Shown here in pieces: positions 9,928 to 59,458 of a stretch of 64,000 nucleotides of DNA. The notes beneath the pieces are model-generated. The model was not told where the DNA came from. It made no database searches and worked only from the letters and a program-made list of their open reading frames with translations. The DNA is taken from positions 1 through 64,000 of the forward strand of contig CAINDA010000059.1 of assembly GCA_903847205.1 (NCBI GenBank), in the 5' to 3' direction. The first letter of the stretch is position 1; the number at the start of each line of letters is the position of its first letter. Both the position numbers and the translations under genes were made by a program. The stretch comes from an uncultured Bacteroidota bacterium. GTDB lineage: Bacteria; Bacteroidota; Bacteroidia; 2-12-FULL-35-15.

Positions 9928-12900
9928 TTACTTAACCAATGTTACAGTTCCCTTATAGCTGTGTTTGCGCTGATTAAAATCTGTAATCTTTATTGAATAG
10001 ATATACACATCTCTTTGAGCTGATTCTGTTCCGTGATTAGCAGTACCATCCCAGCCTTTGGTGCTGTCATTAGAATAAAATATTAAATTGCCCCAGCGGT
10101 CAAATATCATCATTTCATATTCTGATATAAATATCCCCTTGCCTATAAAGATATCATTTATACCGTCATCATTGGGTGAGAAAGAGTTTGGCACATAAAA
10201 TACAAAGTCTGGTTCAATGAAGACCGTTTGATACGAGGTATCAATACAATTATACTGGGTAGATACAATCTGTCTTATCAGGTAAGCACCCGTATCTGCG
10301 TAGGTATGCGGGTTAGGATAGTGTATTGATGTTGTATCCTGATCACCAAAGTTCCAATGCCAGTAATTGCCTCCAATAGATTTATCTGTTATTGTAATAA
10401 CAGGATTGACTATACTTGCACTGCTTGGCAATGCTGTAAAACCTGCTATCGGCATTGGATACACAGTGATGTAATGATTTTTTGTTTTTGTACTAACACA
10501 TCCGCTGTCCGAAGAAACAGTTAATGTTACATCTAAGAGGTTAGGTGCAAAAACTGAATCATTATGATAGCAGTGAAAAGGGCTCTGACCGCTTCCTGCA
10601 GGACTCTGGTCGCCGTAATTCCACACAAAAGCAGTATTTGTTCCAGGGTTTACAGTAGAAGTATTTTGGAAAGTGACGCATAATGGCTCACAGCCGATAC
10701 TGTCATTCCTTGTGAAACTGACAACTGGATTAGGATTGACGGTTATGGTCCTGATCACTGAATCTAAACAGCCGAAGTTAGAAGTAATAAACAGCTGAAC
10801 CGGATAAACACCTGCGGAAGCATACAAATGAGATGTATTTTGAGTTGTGCTCAAAGCACTGTTGTCGGCATAGTTCCAGCGCCAGCTGTGAATGGTATCG
10901 CTTGGCGCGATGTAAGAAGAGTCTGCAAATTGAACTGCGGCTCCATTACATACATCCAATGCGTATATCCGCGCATGCGGAAGAGGATGAACTACCGTAT
11001 TTTTTACGATTGTATCCTTGCAGCCGTATCCGCTCGTTACTATTAATGTTACAGGGCGTGTGCCCGGATTGGCATAAAGGTGGCTCGGATTCGGATTACC
11101 ATTCGGAGAAGTACCATCGCCGAAGTTCCAGGTATGAACGGCTATACTTCCGCTTGATATTCTTGAACTGTCGTTGAAAAGCATAGGCTGATTTAAACAT
11201 ACATTTCTGAAGCTGTAACCCGCAACAGGCATAGGATACACTGTGATGCTGTCTTTAAGAGTATCAGCACAGCCAAGGTTAGATGAGCGTGTAATCAGAG
11301 CTACCTGATAGTGGCCCGGCAGAAGATAATGATGAAAGGGGCTCCACACCGTTGTGTTAAGTCCGCTGTTATCGCCGTAATTCCAGCACCAGCTAGCTGT
11401 ACTTCCCATTACCGGAGGAATAGTTGTATTAGTGAATAACACGGAATCAAACAGGCAGATATTATTTTTACTGAAGGCCGACTGGGGCGCATCATACGTT
11501 TTCACAGAATGGGTCATTGCATTGGAACAACCTTTTGTTGTTCTGCTTAAGAGTGTTGCATTATATGTGCCTGAAAGGCTGTAGTAATGAGCAGGACTGG
11601 CTGTACTGCCTGTTGGGCCGTTATCTCCAAATACCCATAAATAAGCCGCAAGTGAATCCGGAAGTGTTATTGTGCTGGCATTAGTAAAGTGAAGACTGTC
11701 GCCTAAACAGACATCAATATGGCTGAAATTCGCAACAGGGTTGTAAAATACACGAACAGGTTTGGTTATGGTATCGGCACAGCCGAAATTATTTCCGGCA
11801 ATCAAAGTAACATTATACATACCTCCGCTTGCATACAGGCGGGAAGGGTTTTGAATTGTTCCTAAGGGGCTGGCATCGCCGTAATTCCAGCCCCATGCTG
11901 TGATGCTTCCTAAAGCGGTTGTTGATGTGTCGGTGAACATTGTTGCGAGGCCCTGGCAGACATTGGTGTTCTTAAAACCAGCCACAGGGTTAGGATGTAC
12001 AATTATTGTTTTGTTAATGGAATCGGAACAGCCGAAGTTGGAAACATCAATCAGCTGAACGGTATATGAACCGGGCAATGCATACAAGTGAGAAGTATTG
12101 GTTGTTATTACCGGCACTGTACCGTCGCCGAAGTTCCAGTGCCAGGAATGAATTGTATCCGTTGGAAGGATGTCAGAAAAATCATTAAAATGAACACTGT
12201 TTTGGTCGCAAACATCTGATGTATTAAAATAAACGACAGGGAGAGGATGAACAACGGTGTTTTTTATAATAGTATCTTTACAGCCTCTGTCGGTGGTAAC
12301 AATTAATCTGACACTGTAAGTGCCAGGAGATGTGTATGTATGCGTTGGGCTAGATGAGGTATCAGCCGGACTGCCATCGCCGAAATCCCAGGAATGGAGA
12401 ACAATGCTGCCGGCGGAAACAGTTGATAAATCATGAAAATGTAAAGCGTGAGTTGAACAAACATTGGTGAAACTAAAATCAGCAACGGGAGTCGGAGGGA
12501 CTATAATTGCTGCCTGAAGCGTGTCAGGGCAGCCAAGATTTGAAGAATGAACAGTTAATGTAACTAGGTAGCTTCCGGGATTTGCATAAATATGGTGAGG
12601 ACTCAAAACAGCTGTATTTAAAGGGGAGCCGTCACCAAAGTTCCAGGACCAGGAGGCTGTAGTGCCCATAACAGGGCTGACAGAATTATTTACAAAGTGT
12701 GCTGAATCGTACAAGCAGATTGCATTGAAGATGAATACAGACTGCGGGGGATCAAACGAATTTACCGCTGCGGATGAGGTATCCGCACAGCCGTCAGCAG
12801 AGGTTGTTATCAGAGTAACCGTATCTTTTCCAGCGGCGGCATAATCATGCGCCGGATTTTTTAAACTGCTCAAGGCACTGCCGTCGCCGAACTTCCACGA

Positions 12901-14841
12901 ATAACTTGAAATGGCAGCTGCCGGATCAATGGTGGAGGTATTGACAAAATGCATTGAATCTCTAAAGCAGACATCAAGATGAGTAAAACCCGCAGTAGGA
13001 TTATAATAAACGGGTACAGACTTTGTAATTGTGTCGGCACAGCCGTTACTGTTGCTTACAATTAATCGAACATTATAGTTCCCAGCATTAGTATATAGAT
13101 GTGCAGGATTTATGGAGTTATTCAAAGTGGTACCGTCTCCGAAATTCCATGTTCTTAAGGAAATGGAGCCTGAAGCTATTGTTGAACCATCATGAAATTG
13201 AGTTACAATACCTTTACAGACGTTTGTATTAGTAAATGCCGCAACTGGATAATCATATACATGTATATTAACAGTGCTTGTGTCAGTAGTGTTACCACAG
13301 GATGCAATAAGCTGAATTTTATGGATGCCTGCAGTATTAAATGTAAAAGGCAGGGTGTCTTTATTGCCATTAACAACGGTTCCATTGACATACCAGTTTT
13401 CAAAACAACGGATCCCGACTGTTGTTGTGTTATAAAAAAACATTGATTGACCAACACATATTGTAGTATCGCTGGGAACAAAAGCAGGAACAGTAGTGCA
13501 ATGCCGGCAGATAAAAATATCTGTTGCAGAGTAATTATTTGTAGTAAGTGAAGGACTGCTTTCAACCAGAGTTGGAACCATTTCCTGCAAACCGGTGCCT
13601 ACCGATGGTGAAACATTAGTAACAATTGTAGCACAGGTTGAATCATGACATCCTACCACACCCATGCTGTCAGTTTTCATAAAAATAGGGTCATAATAAT
13701 CAGCACCAAAATTCGCTGTTATAATAGATAAAGCGTAACCGCCGTCAGAGGTTTCTCTCACCATTTCACATTTATCGTAAGCGGGCCCCCCGTATGCTTT
13801 CGACCATAAGAGATTGCCACCGCCGTCTGTCTTTATTAGATATGCGTCCAAATCACCCGGCCCAGTGACCCAGAAAGATCTGGTGAACCCGCAAATGATA
13901 AATCCACCGCTTCGCGTCTGGTGGGCAAAACGGGGCTGGTCATCATTTGTTCCTCCATAGGTTTTAGCCCATTGCAAAGTGCCGGTGCTGTCTGTTTTCA
14001 CAAGCAGCACATCATTACTTCCCGCCCCATAACTGGCGGTATTTCCACAGATCATATACCCGCCGTCGCTGGTTATCTGTCCCGAAATCCCCCAGGAACT
14101 ATTTCCTTCACCTGCAGTACCACCGTATGTTTTATTCCACTGCATTGTTCCAAGGCTATCGACTTTCAATAATACAAGATCTGTACTTCCTGCACCATAA
14201 CTTGAAGTGTAACCTGCTATTATGTACCCCCCATCCTTAGTCTGCTCGACATAATCTCCCCAATCATCGCCGGCCCCTCCATAAATCTTTTTCCAAATTA
14301 AATTACCAGAAGCGTCTGTTTTTATCAAAACAATATCATTCCCCCCAAAACCGCCAGCATTAGAAAATCCCGTTAAGATATATCCGCCATCCTTAGTCTG
14401 CTGAACATAGAGCCCATACCCGCCCTCAAATGTTTTTGACCATTGAAGATTGCCTAAAGCATCTATTTTTAATAACAATATAATATAACTGCTGTTGTAC
14501 AGCCCCGCAACAATGTAACCCCCATCAGAAGTCTGCTGTACATACTTCCCTCCGTCGGCTCCCGCATTACCAAACAGCCTTTCCCACTGAAGAGTTCCGC
14601 ATGCATCAACCTTATATACATATACATCGCAGTTTCCGGCACTGCCAGCTTCCTGCTGGCCAGTTCCAACAAATCCGCCATCGCTTGTTACCGCAAGAGA
14701 CAAACCGCCATTCATCCCCGGAGCAGTTGCCATTCTCATAAAAGTATTGGAATTCTGGGCAAATGAATTTCCTCTAAGGACTGCCCAAAACAGCGCTATT
14801 GAAAAGAAAATTGCTAAATTATGTTTTGTAATACTATTCAT
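9928..14841 (-). CDS. Giant propeller-PKD surface protein, T9SS type B (gliding-motility-type) C-terminus
   Basis: A 1637-residue secreted protein with a signal peptide ending near 'RGNSFAQ'. Residues about 40-410 hold seven repeats of about 50 residues with the core 'TSDGGYI-x-x-G' then '(D/N)-x-x-L-x-KTD-x-x-G-x-LQW', which I read as a seven-bladed beta-propeller. From about 440 to 1530 come at least 12 PKD domains marked by 'WNFGDGS'-type motifs plus one more divergent Ig/PKD unit. The last 95 residues ('VPNSFSPNDDGINDIF', 'MIFDRWGNLIF', 'GWDG') match the gliding motility-associated, type B sorting domain that sends the protein through T9SS. It is probably a cell-surface adhesin or filament. 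Five consecutive PKD domains have been duplicated as a block. It is monocistronic. Confidence 0.92.
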   Translation of the reverse strand: MNSITKHNLAIFFSIALFWAVLRGNSFAQNSNTFMRMATAPGMNGGLSLAVTSDGGFVGTGQQEAGSAGNCDVYVYKVDACGTLQWERLFGNAGADGGKYVQQTSDGGYIVAGLYNSSYIILLLKIDALGNLQWSKTFEGGYGLYVQQTKDGGYILTGFSNAGGFGGNDIVLIKTDASGNLIWKKIYGGAGDDWGDYVEQTKDGGYIIAGYTSSYGAGSTDLVLLKVDSLGTMQWNKTYGGTAGEGNSSWGISGQITSDGGYMICGNTASYGAGSNDVLLVKTDSTGTLQWAKTYGGTNDDQPRFAHQTRSGGFIICGFTRSFWVTGPGDLDAYLIKTDGGGNLLWSKAYGGPAYDKCEMVRETSDGGYALSIITANFGADYYDPIFMKTDSMGVVGCHDSTCATIVTNVSPSVGTGLQEMVPTLVESSPSLTTNNYSATDIFICRHCTTVPAFVPSDTTICVGQSMFFYNTTTVGIRCFENWYVNGTVVNGNKDTLPFTFNTAGIHKIQLIASCGNTTDTSTVNIHVYDYPVAAFTNTNVCKGIVTQFHDGSTIASGSISLRTWNFGDGTTLNNSINPAHLYTNAGNYNVRLIVSNSNGCADTITKSVPVYYNPTAGFTHLDVCFRDSMHFVNTSTIDPAAAISSYSWKFGDGSALSSLKNPAHDYAAAGKDTVTLITTSADGCADTSSAAVNSFDPPQSVFIFNAICLYDSAHFVNNSVSPVMGTTASWSWNFGDGSPLNTAVLSPHHIYANPGSYLVTLTVHSSNLGCPDTLQAAIIVPPTPVADFSFTNVCSTHALHFHDLSTVSAGSIVLHSWDFGDGSPADTSSSPTHTYTSPGTYSVRLIVTTDRGCKDTIIKNTVVHPLPVVYFNTSDVCDQNSVHFNDFSDILPTDTIHSWHWNFGDGTVPVITTNTSHLYALPGSYTVQLIDVSNFGCSDSINKTIIVHPNPVAGFKNTNVCQGLATMFTDTSTTALGSITAWGWNYGDASPLGTIQNPSRLYASGGMYNVTLIAGNNFGCADTITKPVRVFYNPVANFSHIDVCLGDSLHFTNASTITLPDSLAAYLWVFGDNGPTGSTASPAHYYSLSGTYNATLLSRTTKGCSNAMTHSVKTYDAPQSAFSKNNICLFDSVLFTNTTIPPVMGSTASWCWNYGDNSGLNTTVWSPFHHYLLPGHYQVALITRSSNLGCADTLKDSITVYPMPVAGYSFRNVCLNQPMLFNDSSRISSGSIAVHTWNFGDGTSPNGNPNPSHLYANPGTRPVTLIVTSGYGCKDTIVKNTVVHPLPHARIYALDVCNGAAVQFADSSYIAPSDTIHSWRWNYADNSALSTTQNTSHLYASAGVYPVQLFITSNFGCLDSVIRTITVNPNPVVSFTRNDSIGCEPLCVTFQNTSTVNPGTNTAFVWNYGDQSPAGSGQSPFHCYHNDSVFAPNLLDVTLTVSSDSGCVSTKTKNHYITVYPMPIAGFTALPSSASIVNPVITITDKSIGGNYWHWNFGDQDTTSIHYPNPHTYADTGAYLIRQIVSTQYNCIDTSYQTVFIEPDFVFYVPNSFSPNDDGINDIFIGKGIFISEYEMMIFDRWGNLIFYSNDSTKGWDGTANHGTESAQRDVYIYSIKITDFNQRKHSYKGTVTLVK

Positions 14842-15512: not shown

Positions 15513-16013
15513 TTATTTGGGCTTCTTGTATAATGGAACAGCAGAACAGGCTTCTCCATACATAATGCTTTTTGCAACAGGACGCAGCAACATGGCAATT
15601 TCAACATAAGCCGCTTTGGGTACAGGCAGATGACCGCAGCCTTTTATTACAATACGAGCATCTTTATAGCTATCAATATCTAGCGTTCGGAGGGCTTCGT
15701 TAAATAAAATGGTTTCAAGAACTTCCAGATTTCCATACACTATTTTTTTTGCATAGGGCTCCAAGTGCAAAGCCAGCAACATGTAAGCCCATACGGGAAC
15801 AACGGCATCTGCCGAACAGATGAGAGCGATATACTTGTCCTGATACTCAGCCCAATTTTCGTTTTTGATGAATTCACGAAAATCTTTTTCACGAAGCATC
15901 AATCCTTCAAAAAGCAAATCTTTAATATCAAATAATACACGTTCGCCTTTCGGATAAAAATCTTCAAGGTCGATGGTGATGATGCCGCTTAAGGCAACTT
16001 TATTTATTATCAT
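15513..16013 (-). CDS. DUF2480 family protein
   Basis: A 166-residue cytosolic protein matching DUF2480: 'INKVALSGIITIDLEDFYPKG' at the start, 'LICSADAVVPVWAYMLLA' in the middle, 'VIKGCGHLPVP-x-x-AYVEI' near the end. The family is almost confined to Bacteroidota and often lies beside SUF iron-sulfur genes, as here, downstream of the DUF59 gene on the same strand. Two conserved Cys residues (in LICSAD and KGCGH) are suggestive, but no function is established. Confidence 0.85.
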   Translation of the reverse strand: MIINKVALSGIITIDLEDFYPKGERVLFDIKDLLFEGLMLREKDFREFIKNENWAEYQDKYIALICSADAVVPVWAYMLLALHLEPYAKKIVYGNLEVLETILFNEALRTLDIDSYKDARIVIKGCGHLPVPKAAYVEIAMLLRPVAKSIMYGEACSAVPLYKKPK

Positions 16014-16094
16014 GACTATTATGTACTGAGTACAAAGTATTATGTACTATGAATATCGCGGTTATTGTACTTGGTACTTAATACTTCGTACTTT
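16014..16094. repeat. Palindromic AAGTATTAAGTAC-type repeat
   Basis: AGTACAAAGTATTATGTACT (16029-16048) on the left is mirrored by TACTTGGTACTTAATACTTCG and TACTTT on the right, around a short central ATCGCGGTTATT. The same word family recurs at 57876-58019 and 58375-58489. It looks like a small interspersed palindrome filling the gap between two SUF-region genes. Confidence 0.6.
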
Positions 16095-16424
16095 TTACAT
16101 AAATCCAAGCTCCAGCTGGGCAACCTCGGTCATCATTTCTTTTTCCCAGGGCGGTTCAAAGGTTAATTCTATTTTTGCTGATCTAATGCCTTCTACATCA
16201 CGAAGCTTCTGTTCTACTTCAGGAGGCAGTGTTTCAGCAACAGGACAAGACGGCGAGGTTAAAGTCATTTTCACAAGAAGATTGTTCTCTGCATCAATGT
16301 TGATTTCATAAATCAAGCCCAGCTCCCAAATATCTACAGGTATTTCGGGGTCGTAGCAGGTTTTAATGGTGTCTATTACCCGCTGTGCAAGGGGAGTGTC
16401 GTGAGTATTTATAATTGCCGGCAT
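16095..16424 (-). CDS. DUF59 / MIP18-type Fe-S assembly protein (SufT-like)
   Basis: A 109-residue protein consisting of one DUF59 domain. The signature 'CYDPEIPVDIWELGLIYEI' (residues about 26-44) and the conserved 'TLTSPSCPVAETLP' with its Cys are both present. Members assist iron-sulfur cluster maturation or transfer and are commonly encoded in SUF operons. It follows sufE on the same strand after a palindrome-filled gap. The C-terminal 'FEPPWEKEMM' is typical of the family. Confidence 0.88.
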   Translation of the reverse strand: MPAIINTHDTPLAQRVIDTIKTCYDPEIPVDIWELGLIYEINIDAENNLLVKMTLTSPSCPVAETLPPEVEQKLRDVEGIRSAKIELTFEPPWEKEMMTEVAQLELGFM

Positions 16425-16429
16425 CCTTT

Positions 16430-16521
16430 TTTTAGTTCAAAGTTTGTTAGTTTAAAGCTGGAAGTTTAAAGTTGGAAAGTCATAAACAGCATTTAATACA
16501 GAACCTTCTAACTTTAAACTT
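16430..16521. repeat. Palindromic AGTTTAAAGTT-type repeat
   Basis: Left arm TTTAAAGCTGGAAGTTTAAA and AGTTGGAAAG; right arm CTTCTAACTTTAAACTTTTA then AACTTTAAACTGC. The arms are inverted copies built from AGTTTAAAG. The repeat separates sufE from the DUF59 gene and supplies nearly the entire gap. Confidence 0.55.
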
Positions 16522-42519: not shown

Positions 42520-42614
42520 TTTAAACTTCGTTTTTTACAATTATTCCTTTTTGCACTGCTGATTGTTGTTTGCTGCCAGTTCCCAATTGCCTGTTGCTCT
42601 TTGCCTATTGGCTT

Positions 42615-54625: not shown

Positions 54626-54654
54626 CAAACCTTTTTCAGGCTGAAAAAGGTTTG
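54626..54654 (+). terminator. Perfect inverted repeat after the HTH gene
   Basis: CAAACCTTTTTCAG (54626-54639), a single G, then CTGAAAAAGGTTTG (54641-54654): 14-bp arms with no mismatch, 13 bp after the stop codon. The position suggests a terminator or an attenuating hairpin, although a U-run does not follow. Its right arm is the first unit of the tandem array that follows. Confidence 0.6.
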
Positions 54655-54929
54655 CATTGCTCTAAAAAGGTTTGCATCGCTCTGAAAAAGGTTTGCATCG
54701 GTCTGAAAAAGGTTTGCATTCCTCTAAAAAGGTTTGCATCGGTCTGAAAAAGGTTTGCATTGCTCTGAAAAGGTTTGCATCGCTCTGAAAAAGGTTTGCA
54801 TCGCTCTAAAAAGGTTTGCAACGCTCTGAAAAAGGTTTGCATTGCTCTGAAAAAGGTTTCCATTGCTCTAAAAAGGTTTGCATCGCTCTGAAAAAGGTTT
54901 GAATTGCTCTGAAAAAGGTTTGCGTACGC
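54641..54929. repeat. 14-unit 20/21-bp tandem array derived from the hairpin arm
   Basis: Fourteen consecutive copies of TCTGAAAAAGGTTTGCATYGC, each 20 to 22 bp (for example units at 54661-54680, 54681-54701 and 54784-54804). A few vary at TCTA/TCTG and ATC/ATT, and there are no spacers. The repeat core CTGAAAAAGGTTTG equals the right arm of the preceding hairpin, so every unit could in principle pair with the left arm. Unit lengths of 20 and 21 change the reading frame, so encoded peptides are not maintained. Confidence 0.9.
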
Positions 54930-55418: not shown

Positions 55419-57869
55419 CTAACTCCCGCAAGCCTCGCAGGCATCCGGATTATCCAATGAACAAGTCAGCTGTGAAGCAATTTCAGCCGCTCTTTTTGCT
55501 TCTGTTTCTGCTTCTAATATTGCCTGGCGCTCGGCGCTGATCTGCTGCTGGCGTTCCATGATCAATACATCTTCGTTGCCTAATACTTCCGGTGTTTCTT
55601 TTGCTGCTGCAGCATCGGCAGTAAATTTAATTGCATCTGCTGCGGCTTTGGTGCGTAAATAATACATTCCGGTTTTTAATCCTGCTTTCCAGCCGTAGAA
55701 GTGCATCGATGAAAGTTTTGCAAAGTTGGCATCCTGTACAAATAAATTCAACGACTGAGACTGGCAGATATACGCACCGCGGTCAGCAGCCATATTGATG
55801 ATTACCTTCTGAGAAATTTCCCAAACGGTTTTGTACAAGGCTTTAATGTTTGCAGGGATGGCATCGATATTCTGAACAGAGCCGTTTGCAATTATAATTT
55901 TATTTTTCAGGCTGTCGTTCCAGATGCCCAGTTTAACCAAGTCTTTCAAGAGGTGTTTGTTTACAATCACAAACTCGCCTGATAATACACGTCTTGAATA
56001 AATGTTGGAAGTATATGGTTCGAAACATTCGTTGTTTCCTAAAATCTGCGACGTGCTTGCTGTCGGCATCGGCGCTAACAGCAATGAATTGCGGACACCG
56101 TGTTTTTTTACTTCTTCTTTCAGAACATCCCACTCCCAGCGAGGCGAAGGTGTTACATTCCACATATCGTATTGAAAAATTCCTTTTGAAACGGGTGATC
56201 CAGCGTACGTTTCGTAAGCGCCTTCAGCTTTAGCTAAATCTTTAGACGCTGTCATAGCAGCATAATAAATTGTTTCGTGAATCTCTTTGTTCAGTTTCAC
56301 TGCTTCGTGAGAATCGAAAGGGAAACGCATTAAAATAAATGCATCCGCCAATCCCTGAACGCCTATGCCGATAGGGCGGTGACGAAGGTTAGAGTTGCGT
56401 GCTTCAGCAACCGGGTAATAATTGCGGTCGATTACTTTATTTAAATTTTTAGTGATTACATACGTAATGTCAAATAATTTCTGGTGATCGAATTGTCCGC
56501 CTTCTACAAAACGCGGAAGTGCGATAGATGCAAGGTTACATACTGCAATTTCATCAGGAGCAGTATATTCTAAAATTTCGGTACACAAGTTTGAAGACTT
56601 GATAGTACCCAGGTTTTGCTGGTTGCTCTTGGCATTGCAGGCATCTTTGTATAGCATATACGGGTTGCCTGTTTCAATCTGAGAATCAATGATGGCAGTC
56701 CAAAGTTCGCGAGCTTTAATTGTTTTGCGGGCGCGGCCTTCTTTCTCGTATTTAGTATATAATTTTTCAAATGCTTCGCCCCAGCAGTCTGCCAAGCCTG
56801 GCGCTTCATTCGGACAGAACAATGACCAATTGCCATTTGCTTCAACGCGCTTCATAAACAAATCGGGAGTCCACATGGCAGTAAACAAATCGCGGGCACG
56901 GGCTTCTTCTTTACCTGTGTTTTTGCGGATGTCTAAAAACTCATAAATATCAGCATGCCAAGGCTCCAGATAAATTGCAAATGAACCTTTGCGTTTTCCT
57001 CCGCCTTGATCGACATAACGCGCTGTATCATTGAACACACGCAGCATTGGAATAATACCATTTGAAGTACCGTTGGTACCGCGGATGTAAGAGCCTGTTG
57101 CACGTACATTGTGAATGCTGAGTCCGATACCGCCTGCACTCTGTGAAATTTTAGCGCAGTTTTTTAAGGTGTCATAAATGCCGTCAATGCTGTCGTCTTT
57201 CATGGTTAACAGAAAGCAGGACGACATCTGCGGTTTCGGAGTACCTGCATTAAACAAGGTAGGAGTAGCGTGTGTGAACCAGCGTTCGCTCATCAGGTTA
57301 TAAGTTTCAATCGCGGAAGCAATATCTTCTTTGTGAATACCCACAGCCACACGCATAATCATGTGCTGCGGACGTTCAGCAACCTGACCGTTTAATTTTA
57401 AAAGGTATGAACGCTCCAATGTTTTAAATCCGAAATAATCATAACCGAAATCGCGGTCGTAAATGATAGTAGAATCAAGCTCCTGAGCATTTGCCTGGAT
57501 GATTTCATGAACATCATCAGCAATCAGCGGGGCTGTTTTACCGGTTTTAGGATCAACAAATTTATAAAGCGCTTCCATTGTTTTTGAAAACGATTTATTT
57601 GTGTTTTTATGAAGATTAGAAACTGCTATCCGTGATGCTAACAGCGCATAGTCGGGGTGTTTGGTAGTTAATGAAGCGGCAGTTTCTGCTGCAAGGTTGT
57701 CCAGCTCACTAGTACTTACACCTTCGTAAATACCTTCAATCACTTTCATAGCAACGTTGATTGCTGTTACGTGCGTTGGATCCAGGCCGTAACAAAGCTT
57801 TTGGATACGTGCAGTGATCTTGTCAAATTTTACCGACTCGCGGTTACCGTCTCTTTTTATTACGTACAT
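55419..57869 (-). CDS. nrdA: Ribonucleoside-diphosphate reductase alpha subunit, class Ia
   Basis: An 816-residue catalytic subunit that reduces ribonucleotides to deoxyribonucleotides together with NrdB. An ATP-cone (residues about 1-90, '[18 protein letters not shown]') gives allosteric control. The active site has 'SSCFLLT', 'SNLCTEI' (about residue 427, with the Asn, Cys and Glu of the radical site) and 'VCNLASIAL'. The C-terminal 'DACEACGS' holds the CxxC pair that is reduced by thioredoxin-type proteins. The sequence is closer to the eukaryote-like branch than to E. coli NrdA. It is third in the row nrdB, S23-like gene, nrdA. Confidence 0.96.
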
Positions 57870-57875
57870 ATATTA

Positions 57876-58019
57876 TTAAAGTATTAAGTATTATGTATAA
57901 AGTATTATGATTGAAGTATTATGATATTAGTGTTTCGTTTTATTTATTGTAAGCATTATGTCATTGTATTCCATGCTTAATACTTTGTACATAATACTTA
58001 GTACTCTCTACTTTGTACT
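57876..58019. repeat. Palindromic AAGTATTAAGTA repeat, nrdA side of the S23-like gene
   Basis: Left part: AAGTATTAAGTATTATGTAT, AAAGTATTATGA and GAAGTATTATGA. Right part: GCTTAATACTTTGTACATAA, TACTTAGTACTC and TACTTTGTACTCC, which are inverted forms of the same word. The right end runs into the last codons of the S23-like gene ('LRSTK'). Confidence 0.6.
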
Positions 58020-58367
58020 CCTTAATGATTTCTGCAATCCGAATGTCATATTCTGAACATCGTTTATTTTTTTTATTGCCGCATCAAGTGCCTCCGGCTC
58101 AATGTATCCAAGTTTATTAGCGATAATAAGCTGTGTCTCTAATTCAAATGACGAACCATTAGATATTCCTAAAAAGTGATTAAATTCTCCATCGTTATTT
58201 CTTCCCGCTCCTTCTGCTATATTTGAAGGAATTGAAATTCCGCATCTATTTATTTGTGAGACAAGTCCGAATTTTTCTTCTCCTGGAAACACTTTTGTTA
58301 TTTTGTAAATATCTACTGCTAAGTCCACCGCTTTCTGCCAAACCAACAACTCTTTGAATTTGTGCAT
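58008..58367 (-). CDS. Four-helix-bundle protein (S23/TIGR02436 type)
   Basis: A 119-residue protein of the four-helix-bundle group known from intervening sequences inside 23S rRNA genes and, as Avd, from diversity-generating retroelements. The family pattern is complete: 'FKELLVWQKAVDLAVDIYKI', 'FGLVSQINRCGISIPSNIAE', 'GAGRNNDGEFNHFLGISNGS', 'ELETQLIIANKLGYI'. It lies between nrdB and nrdA on their strand, and both flanks are palindromic repeats of one family. No reverse transcriptase, target or template repeat is present, so a retroelement role is not supported. The molecular function of stand-alone copies is unknown. Confidence 0.9.
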   Translation of the reverse strand: MHKFKELLVWQKAVDLAVDIYKITKVFPGEEKFGLVSQINRCGISIPSNIAEGAGRNNDGEFNHFLGISNGSSFELETQLIIANKLGYIEPEALDAAIKKINDVQNMTFGLQKSLRSTK

Positions 58368-58374
58368 GGTTTAT

Positions 58375-58489
58375 TAGTATAAAGTATTAAGTATTATGAA
58401 TGTTAGTATGAAAAATTGCTGAGTTTAATGCTAATCGAATTACAAAATCTTAATACTTAATACATTGTACTCAATACCTAATACTCCCT
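58375..58489. repeat. Palindromic AAGTATTAAGTA repeat, nrdB side of the S23-like gene
   Basis: TAAAGTATTAAGTATTATGA on the left is mirrored by CTTAATACTTAATACATTGT then ACTCAATACCTAATACTC on the right. It matches the repeat on the other side of the gene and the one at 16014-16094. Confidence 0.6.
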
Positions 58490-59458
58490 TTAAAAGTCCT
58501 CGTCCAGTGAGAAAACATTGTCTTCTTTTTTTCCCATCACTCCGGATTTTTGATATTCGGCAACGCGCTTTTCAAAGAAATTTGTTTTGCCCTGTAAGGA
58601 AATCAACTCCATAAAGTCGAAAGGGTTAACTGCATTGTAAGCTTTTGGACAGCCGAGAGAAATAAGCAGCCTGTCAGCTACAAACTCAATGTATTGGCAC
58701 ATCATATCGGCATTCATGCCTATCAGGCGGACAGGAATAGCATCCGAAACAAATTCCTTTTCAATTGCAACTGCATTTGTAATGATAGCAGTTACTTTTT
58801 CCTGAGGGAGTTTGTTTTCAAGCTGCGAATAAAGCAGGCATGCAAAATCGCAGTGCAGGCCTTCGTCGCGCGAAATTAGTTCGTTTGAAAAAGTTAAGCC
58901 AGGCATCAATCCGCGTTTTTTTAACCAGAAGATAGAGCAGAAACTTCCTGAAAAGAATATACCTTCTACTGCAGCGAAAGCAATTAACCGTTCAGCGAAG
59001 GATCCGTTACCTATCCATTTAAGAGCCCACTCGGCTTTCTTCCCAACACATGGCAGTGTATCTATAGAATGAAAAAGCCTGTCTTTTTCTATCGGGTCTT
59101 TAATATAACTGTCTATTAATAAAGAGTATGTTTCGGAATGAATGTTTTCCATCATAATCTGAAAGCCGTAAAAGCAGCGAGCTTCCGGATACTGCACTTC
59201 ATTCATAAAGTTAACAGCCAGATTTTCATTAACAATACCGTCGCTTGCTGCAAAAAATGCAAGCACATGCTTTATAAAATGTTTCTCATCATTATTTAAC
59301 TTGTTTTCCCAATCCTGTAAATCCGGATTCAGGTCAATTTCTTCTGCAGTCCAAAAGCTTGCTTCGGCTTTTTTATACATCTCCCAAATATCATGGTGCT
59401 TGATCGGGAAAAGTACAAATCTGTCTTTGTTTTCTTTTAGAATTGGTTCTTCTGACAT
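58490..59458 (-). CDS. nrdB: Ribonucleoside-diphosphate reductase beta subunit, class Ia
   Basis: A 322-residue radical-generating subunit. The di-iron ligands and radical Tyr are placed as in class Ia: Asp42 in 'TAEEIDL', Glu104 and His107 in 'MENIHSETY' with the radical Tyr at 111 (E-x2-H-x3-Y). The segment '[13 protein letters not shown]' and 'EARCFYGFQ' is strikingly eukaryote-like. The C-terminal '[11 protein letters not shown]' would dock into NrdA. The gene is first in the nrdB, S23-like, nrdA row. No NrdR box was seen upstream. Confidence 0.96.

Follow-up and report, generated by a model that had tools for sequence, protein, structure and literature searches.

What is an S23 gene doing between the two subunit genes of a ribonucleotide reductase? 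That S23 genes ride as passengers in 23S rRNA has been known for decades, and we know of no function for them. Heptamer repeats of cyanobacteria and Bacteroidota are unexplained as well, and some of them serve as fingerprinting markers. Both meet in the stretch of DNA analysed here, a window of 64,000 nucleotides (contig CAINDA010000059.1) from an uncultured Bacteroidota bacterium, referred to below as the source genome. The first-pass annotation of the window had suggested that the S23 gene and the repeats on its two sides might form a small mobile cassette.

An S23 gene between inverted heptamer arrays

The nrdB, S23 and nrdA genes of the window lie on the minus strand, co-directional and transcribed in this order, and the gene assignments of the first-pass annotation were borne out by profile matches. 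The upstream host gene nrdB (58490..59458), encoding the small subunit of a class I ribonucleotide reductase, matches PF00268 (1.9e-119), and the downstream host gene nrdA (55419..57869), encoding the large subunit, matches PF02867 (1.1e-218). The gene between them (58008..58367) encodes an S23 / four-helix-bundle protein of 119 aa, which lies above the curated cut-offs of both PF05635 (1.1e-38; 132.1 vs 33.8 bits) and TIGR02436 (7.1e-36; 122.8 vs 24 bits) and has relatives with solved structures (2gsc, 2rld).

Both intergenic gaps are filled by a degenerate heptamer, AAGTA followed by two variable letters (AAGTATT type). Palindromes had been described at these positions; the inverted arrangement holds, but the repeats are not simple palindromes, being tandem heptamers of five fixed and two variable letters laid out as inverted arrays. 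On the nrdB side, the outer 5' arm (58448..58486, minus strand; AGTATTAGGTATTGAGTACAATGTATTAAGTATTAAGA in transcript sense, repeat finder and TRF, period 7) and the inner 5' arm (58376..58402, minus strand), its inverse complement, make up the left palindrome, in which the inverted-repeat finder paired 58376-58399 with 58448-58471 (24 nt, 88% complementary). On the nrdA side, the inner 3' arm (57976..58019, minus strand; sequence and repeat finder) is followed by the outer 3' arm (57878..57927, minus strand; sequence, repeat finder and TRF), which ends 8 nt 5' of the nrdA start codon; here 57880-57927 and 57958-58005 are 79% complementary over 48 nt. The inner 3' arm overlaps the end of the S23 gene, whose last codons, AGT ACA AAG TAG, fall within the array, as had been noticed earlier. 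In the RNA fold predicted for the complete unit (z = -5.0, 20 shuffles) the outer 5' arm finds its partner in 57878-57927, so that the outermost arms pair with each other across the unit and the S23 ORF lies inside.

S23 is the sole ORF of this unit, which encodes no nuclease, transposase or reverse transcriptase and so does not fit an insertion sequence or MITE with a transposase. No reverse transcriptase was found within the nrd cluster of the window by ORF and profile search, and an Rfam search of window positions 55-60 kb returned no match. Adjoining the nrd cluster, at 54641-54923, lies an intergenic array of a 21-mer (3 x 7), CTGAAAAAGGTTTGCATCGCT, with 13.7 copies at 88% match.

Inverted arrays accompany nearly all S23 genes sampled

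Nine S23 genes were found in the source genome, and all nine lie between inverted arrays as judged by eye. AAGTATT is absent from the other eight, each of which has a 7- or 8-letter word of its own, the word differing between paralogues. For a quantitative comparison we used an arm score, the match of the 5' flank to the reverse complement of the 3' flank, for which the window unit (35) is at the top of its set. Among 123 S23 genes, taken from the source genome, its relatives and 80 loci of other genomes, mostly Bacteroidota, the mean score was 20.3 for own arms and 11.4 for mismatched arms, and 0 of 10,000 permutations reached the observed mean. A score of at least 14, a threshold set after the distributions were known, was attained by about 89% of the 123 S23 genes and by 6% of 49 control genes, which were other genes at the same loci (mean score 11.4); the degraded S23 genes L007 and L009 of the source genome fall below it, and their arrays were assigned by eye. 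The collection had been scanned with an alignment of six close S23 proteins, an alignment of 16 diverse ones being too variable. Since such a query biases the sample to relatives of the window protein, a less selected set of 20 weaker S23 matches from relatives was added, in which own arms scored 23.5, mismatched arms 11.2, and 19 of the 20 genes at least 14. Own arms also matched best when the comparison was confined to single junctions (20.9 vs 13.1 and 20.5 vs 10.4; 0/5000), which implies that at each locus the two arms have a word in common.

The cyanobacterial evidence comes from plasmids only. Inverted arrays flank 15 of 18 plasmid S23 genes, mostly cyanobacterial (own-arm match reached in 0 of 20,000 permutations), with words such as AGTAGGG, AACAGGG and TGTAGGG, while the arrays at two plasmid loci, L247 and L253, are direct and not inverted. 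Three cyanobacterial S23 units are located in CRISPR-Cas operons (L247, L260 and L255), twice as cas6-S23-cas4 and once as cas10-S23-cmr3. Phage records gave no S23 match. At one fadB-fadA-type S23 unit (L046, genome G019) the 5' array is strongly expanded to about ten GAGATGT copies, which shows how fast the arrays change in length.

The word follows the S23 protein and not the site

Across 124 S23 genes, the more alike two S23 proteins are, the more alike are their words, and to the same degree at shared and at different junctions: word similarity amounts to 0.51 (same junction) and 0.45 (different junctions) at S23 identities of at least 70%, and to 0.19 and 0.22, respectively, at 30-40%. 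For pairs at different sites the Mantel rho was 0.37 (0 of 500 permutations), with sites assigned from rough ORF calls and at least one pair scored as different (L068/L126) being the same site. A pair whose sites were checked as truly different is formed by the units of Pedobacter fadB-fadA and Mucilaginibacter sdhA-sdhB, whose S23 proteins are 78% identical and which both carry GAGATTT. Occurrence of the same unit elsewhere, which had been proposed as support for mobility, is thus seen as similar S23 proteins with the same word at unrelated sites. Word and S23 lineage belong together, the gene travels with both of its arrays, and because the word tracks the protein across unrelated sites, we infer that the units move, or have moved, whole. 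A correlation of word and protein would also be expected if the flanks merely hitchhiked, and this would count against the mobile-element reading.

Occupied and empty sites

Empty sites lacking gene and repeats, likewise anticipated for a mobile cassette, were encountered in two settings, as presence or absence at the window site and as exact pairs of occupied and empty sites in collinear DNA on plasmids. Among 56 readable nrdB-nrdA junctions from the genus and class of the source genome, the unit is present at four, those of the source genome, G034, G033 and G093, the last belonging to another family; all four carry AAGTATT. The other 52 junctions are without S23 and most hold unrelated sequence, while a few (for example L160 and L174) retain a relic piece of one arm. 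This presence and absence suggests that the window copy itself may have moved. In a Nostoc edaphicum plasmid an S23 unit with the word AGTAGGG lies antisense between nrdB and nrdA, whereas the corresponding junction of Calothrix NIES-4105 is empty; the Nostoc unit is most likely an independent insertion.

The best-resolved case is that of plasmid C of Trichormus variabilis ATCC 29413. Over about 25 kb of alignment this plasmid is collinear with, and 94-98% identical to, one of Tolypothrix PCC 7601. In the aligned part, which leaves out about 5.0-11.9 kb of L274 where gene content differs, four differences of more than 50 bp separate adjoining blocks. All four are insertions in Trichormus, namely two TnpB-type elements, a group II intron and a 420-bp S23 unit. 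The empty site of Tolypothrix reads AAAAAGTAATTAAC, the occupied one of Trichormus AAAAAGTAAT-AAATCAG...TTCTTCTTT-GTAATTAAC, and the S23 unit is flanked by a 5-bp duplication, GTAAT, which includes the stop codon of the upstream gene. The site appears to be empty also in several other 98%-identical plasmids, of which Tolypothrix alone was read, and in Nostoc C052 it holds a truncated relic that has kept the left arm and the start of S23. In Nostoc ATCC 53789, the plasmids pNsp_a and pNsp_c carry different S23 genes with different words at neighbouring junctions, each plasmid being empty where the other is full, and the first of these junctions has a target duplication of 4-5 bp, TTCT(A). A duplication is therefore legible at two of three resolvable plasmid sites (GTAAT and TTCT(A)), and is not clear at the third, L263.

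Orientation, selection and the role of the host

As many as 114 of about 119 Bacteroidota S23 genes run in the same direction as both neighbours. Among three apparent antisense cases in this phylum one looks real, and another, at L126, was discarded as an ORF-calling error; antisense units do occur among the annotated cyanobacterial plasmid loci. For seven S23 genes of the fadB-fadA type, dN/dS was about 0.06, dS being close to saturation. Purifying selection acts on S23 at this site, where the elements look long-lived and could have a host function. With a median pI of 7.9, the S23 proteins are not markedly basic.

The sense orientation in Bacteroidota, the purifying selection on S23, the recurrence of the same junctions such as fadB-fadA and a weak avoidance of divergent regions by the arrays (0/20) would all fit a host regulatory cassette, in which S23 is an RNA-binding regulator of the operon, the arrays are binding or processing sites on the mRNA and the pattern of presence and absence results from gene loss. 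Exact insertions with target duplication in backbones of 94-98% identity speak against such a cassette, as do the occurrence of one S23 lineage with its word at unrelated operons and the antisense insertions between co-directional genes in Nostoc (nrdB-nrdA) and Calothrix, so that we regard it as quite improbable.

The sense bias might also point to mobility through RNA, by which the stem-enclosed S23 RNA would be excised and reverse-transcribed by a cellular enzyme of a diversity-generating retroelement (DGR) or group II intron, with S23 acting as a chaperone similar to Avd. Avd of DGRs is a distant four-helix-bundle relative of S23, as judged by weak matches of the window protein to the Avd models (bAvd 3.9e-5, Avd 1.8e-4; 21.8 vs a cut-off of 80 bits), and the Trichormus plasmid holds the reverse transcriptase of a group II intron. 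Unlike Avd, the S23 protein stays below the Avd cut-off, and no DGR reverse transcriptase stands beside the S23 genes inspected. Antisense copies exist, and a PF00078 reverse transcriptase was not found in the S23-rich, nearly complete genomes G035, G026, G027, G032, G034 and G004, of which G035 has 19 S23 matches in 3.1 Mb and no detected RVT_1 reverse transcriptase. Although not all of the assemblies are complete, such genomes speak against a need of the unit for an RVT_1 enzyme resident in the genome, and we consider the RNA route unlikely.

Arrays without S23 genes

The word of the nrd unit had also been noted at 16014-16094 without an S23 gene, and the intergenic array screen bore this out: the region 16014..16094 (no strand assigned) holds AAGTATT words and folds as a single RNA hairpin (z = -5.9 for 16005-16105). 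A second S23-free hairpin, with the word AAAGTTT, lies at 16425..16521 (no strand assigned; period 7, inverted-repeat score 28). A period-7 array of the TTGCCTATTGGCTTTTACC type was seen between co-directional genes at 42520-42614, its inverted partner not being clear. The screen covered 443 intergenic regions in an 864-kb sample of the source genome and was loose, some of the passing regions being plain AT-rich DNA; 31 regions passed at period 7 and 30 at period 8, with 3-9 at other periods and about 4 in shuffles. The words of the S23-free arrays include AAGTATT, AAAGTTT, GGAGATTT and GATGTGCT and, by eye, are mostly those of S23 units in the source genome or its relatives. In 81 of 88 S23 units the arm that precedes is the G-rich one, and 24 of 29 intergenic inverted arrays show this order; both arrays of the window unit, and two or three more that lie at S23 genes, belong to the latter set.

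Two words vary strongly in number among congeners, the reversed pattern being near zero. GAGA arrays were commoner in genomes assigned a GAGA-type S23 (p = 0.001, unadjusted, for one of two words tried and with genomes grouped from reading a few loci). A simple rule by which genomes rich in AAGTA arrays always hold an nrd-type S23 was not supported, since these arrays abound in G014 and G005, which are without one. An S23-free octamer array in L220, GTGTTTGA, shares its word with the S23 gene L003 at a distance of about 1.3 kb (12857-12965 and 14109-14768) and is possibly a local copy of the L003 array.

Repeats at positions unrelated to S23 genes, which the first-pass annotation had held to count against a mobile unit, were thus found in part: most arrays are S23-free, but their period, polarity and vocabulary are common to the S23 units, and for this reason we read them as derivatives. 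That such arrays are common, about 13% of the 443 sampled regions passing the loose screen, might instead suggest that they are a general feature of slippage or DNA structure in intergenic DNA among which S23 genes lie by chance. This is very hard to reconcile with arrays at nine of nine S23 genes of the source genome and at 19 of 20 in the less selected sample, with arms that share a locus-specific word even within one site, with a word that follows the protein and with units that insert whole, and we attach hardly any weight to it.

Comparison with known systems

Intervening elements that encode S23 are already known. The S23-encoding intervening sequences of 23S rRNA are regarded as selfish, and they resemble the array units in belonging to PF05635, in carrying the ORF inside stem-forming terminal inverted repeats and in their length of about 0.4 kb (PMC4990558). 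They sit in rRNA, whereas the window unit lies between the protein genes nrdB and nrdA; unlike them, the S23 units end in tandem heptamer arrays with lineage-specific words, occur as DNA insertions with target duplication and have many S23-free copies. Removal by RNase III has been demonstrated for the intervening sequence of Coxiella burnetii (PMC4990558), while the S23 array units are known from sequence and predicted fold. In the open-access literature we found no description of intercistronic S23 sites, heptamer-array ends, DNA insertions with duplication or genome-wide gene-free arrays, an earlier description elsewhere being possible.

REP/RAYT systems share with the S23 units a lone gene with inverted repeats on its two sides, and the many copies of such repeats that lie elsewhere in the genome without the gene. 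Unlike them, S23 is without a Y1 (HUH) tyrosine transposase domain, having only PF05635 and the weak bAvd matches, and its repeats are tandem 7-8-mers and not REPs.

Cyanobacterial STRRs are 7-bp tandem repeats without a known function that form hairpins between genes of an operon, hupS-hupL for example (PMC2670836); the tRNA-Leu intron contains degenerate heptanucleotide hairpins (PMC3488679). The period-7 intergenic tandem arrays of the window and of the cyanobacterial S23 units resemble STRRs in form only, while AGTAGGG, AACAGGG and TGTAGGG at the cyanobacterial S23 genes are words of the STRR type. No S23 gene has been linked to STRRs in the open-access literature; STRRs may derive from S23 units. 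TAACTGA direct repeats are found in Beggiatoaceae, cyanobacteria and some Bacteroidetes, and their author speculated that the mobile element might be a protein that binds the repeats (PMC4679880). Both these and the S23 arrays are intergenic heptamers in overlapping phyla; the TAACTGA repeats, unlike the S23 arrays, are mostly direct, use one word and lie near start codons, and S23 is unmentioned in the searched text of PMC4679880.

A probable small mobile element of protein operons

Taken together, the empty sites and the occurrence of the unit at other loci support the cassette proposed for the window, and we put at roughly 0.8 the probability that a small mobile element of about 0.4-0.6 kb, apparently of an undescribed kind, is formed by an S23 gene and the inverted arrays of a 7- or 8-letter word that bound it on either side. 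Such an element would insert between operon genes, as a rule at a stop/start junction and, among Bacteroidota, nearly always in sense, and would make a 5-bp target-site duplication, as judged from the best-resolved insertion. Points that weigh against this reading are the lack of a nuclease, transposase or reverse transcriptase in the unit, the host function that S23 could have at fadB-fadA, the unclear duplication at L263, the abundance of AAGTA arrays in G014 and G005, the direct arrays at L247 and L253 and the moderate pI of the S23 proteins. An S23 oligomer might recognise the array of its own unit in the form of structured RNA or of single-stranded DNA, and a host enzyme encoded outside the element might cut and join, acting on the S23-bound array structures. 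In the transcript the arrays would pair and enclose the S23 ORF in a stem, as happens in the intervening sequences of 23S rRNA; the stem may act as it does there, and a polycistronic mRNA could thus accommodate the element at little cost. Arrays without S23, such as that at 16014-16094, would be remnants or non-autonomous copies. That S23 elements form a nuclease-less class, in which S23 recognises a lineage-specific tandem heptamer code and relies for movement on a borrowed host enzyme, and from which the S23-free, STRR-like hairpins of Bacteroidota and cyanobacteria derive, is a tentative proposal, to which we give slightly less than even odds.

The finding raises the question of how an element encoding only a small non-enzymatic helical protein moves, which the occupied and empty plasmid pairs and the word-per-lineage code make directly testable, and G035, with its 19 S23 matches and no RVT_1 reverse transcriptase detected, is a good place for studying the element. 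Should units of S23 and arrays prove to be mobile elements of protein operons, the S23 family would gain a natural habitat, and the heptamer repeats of cyanobacteria and Bacteroidota would gain a candidate source.
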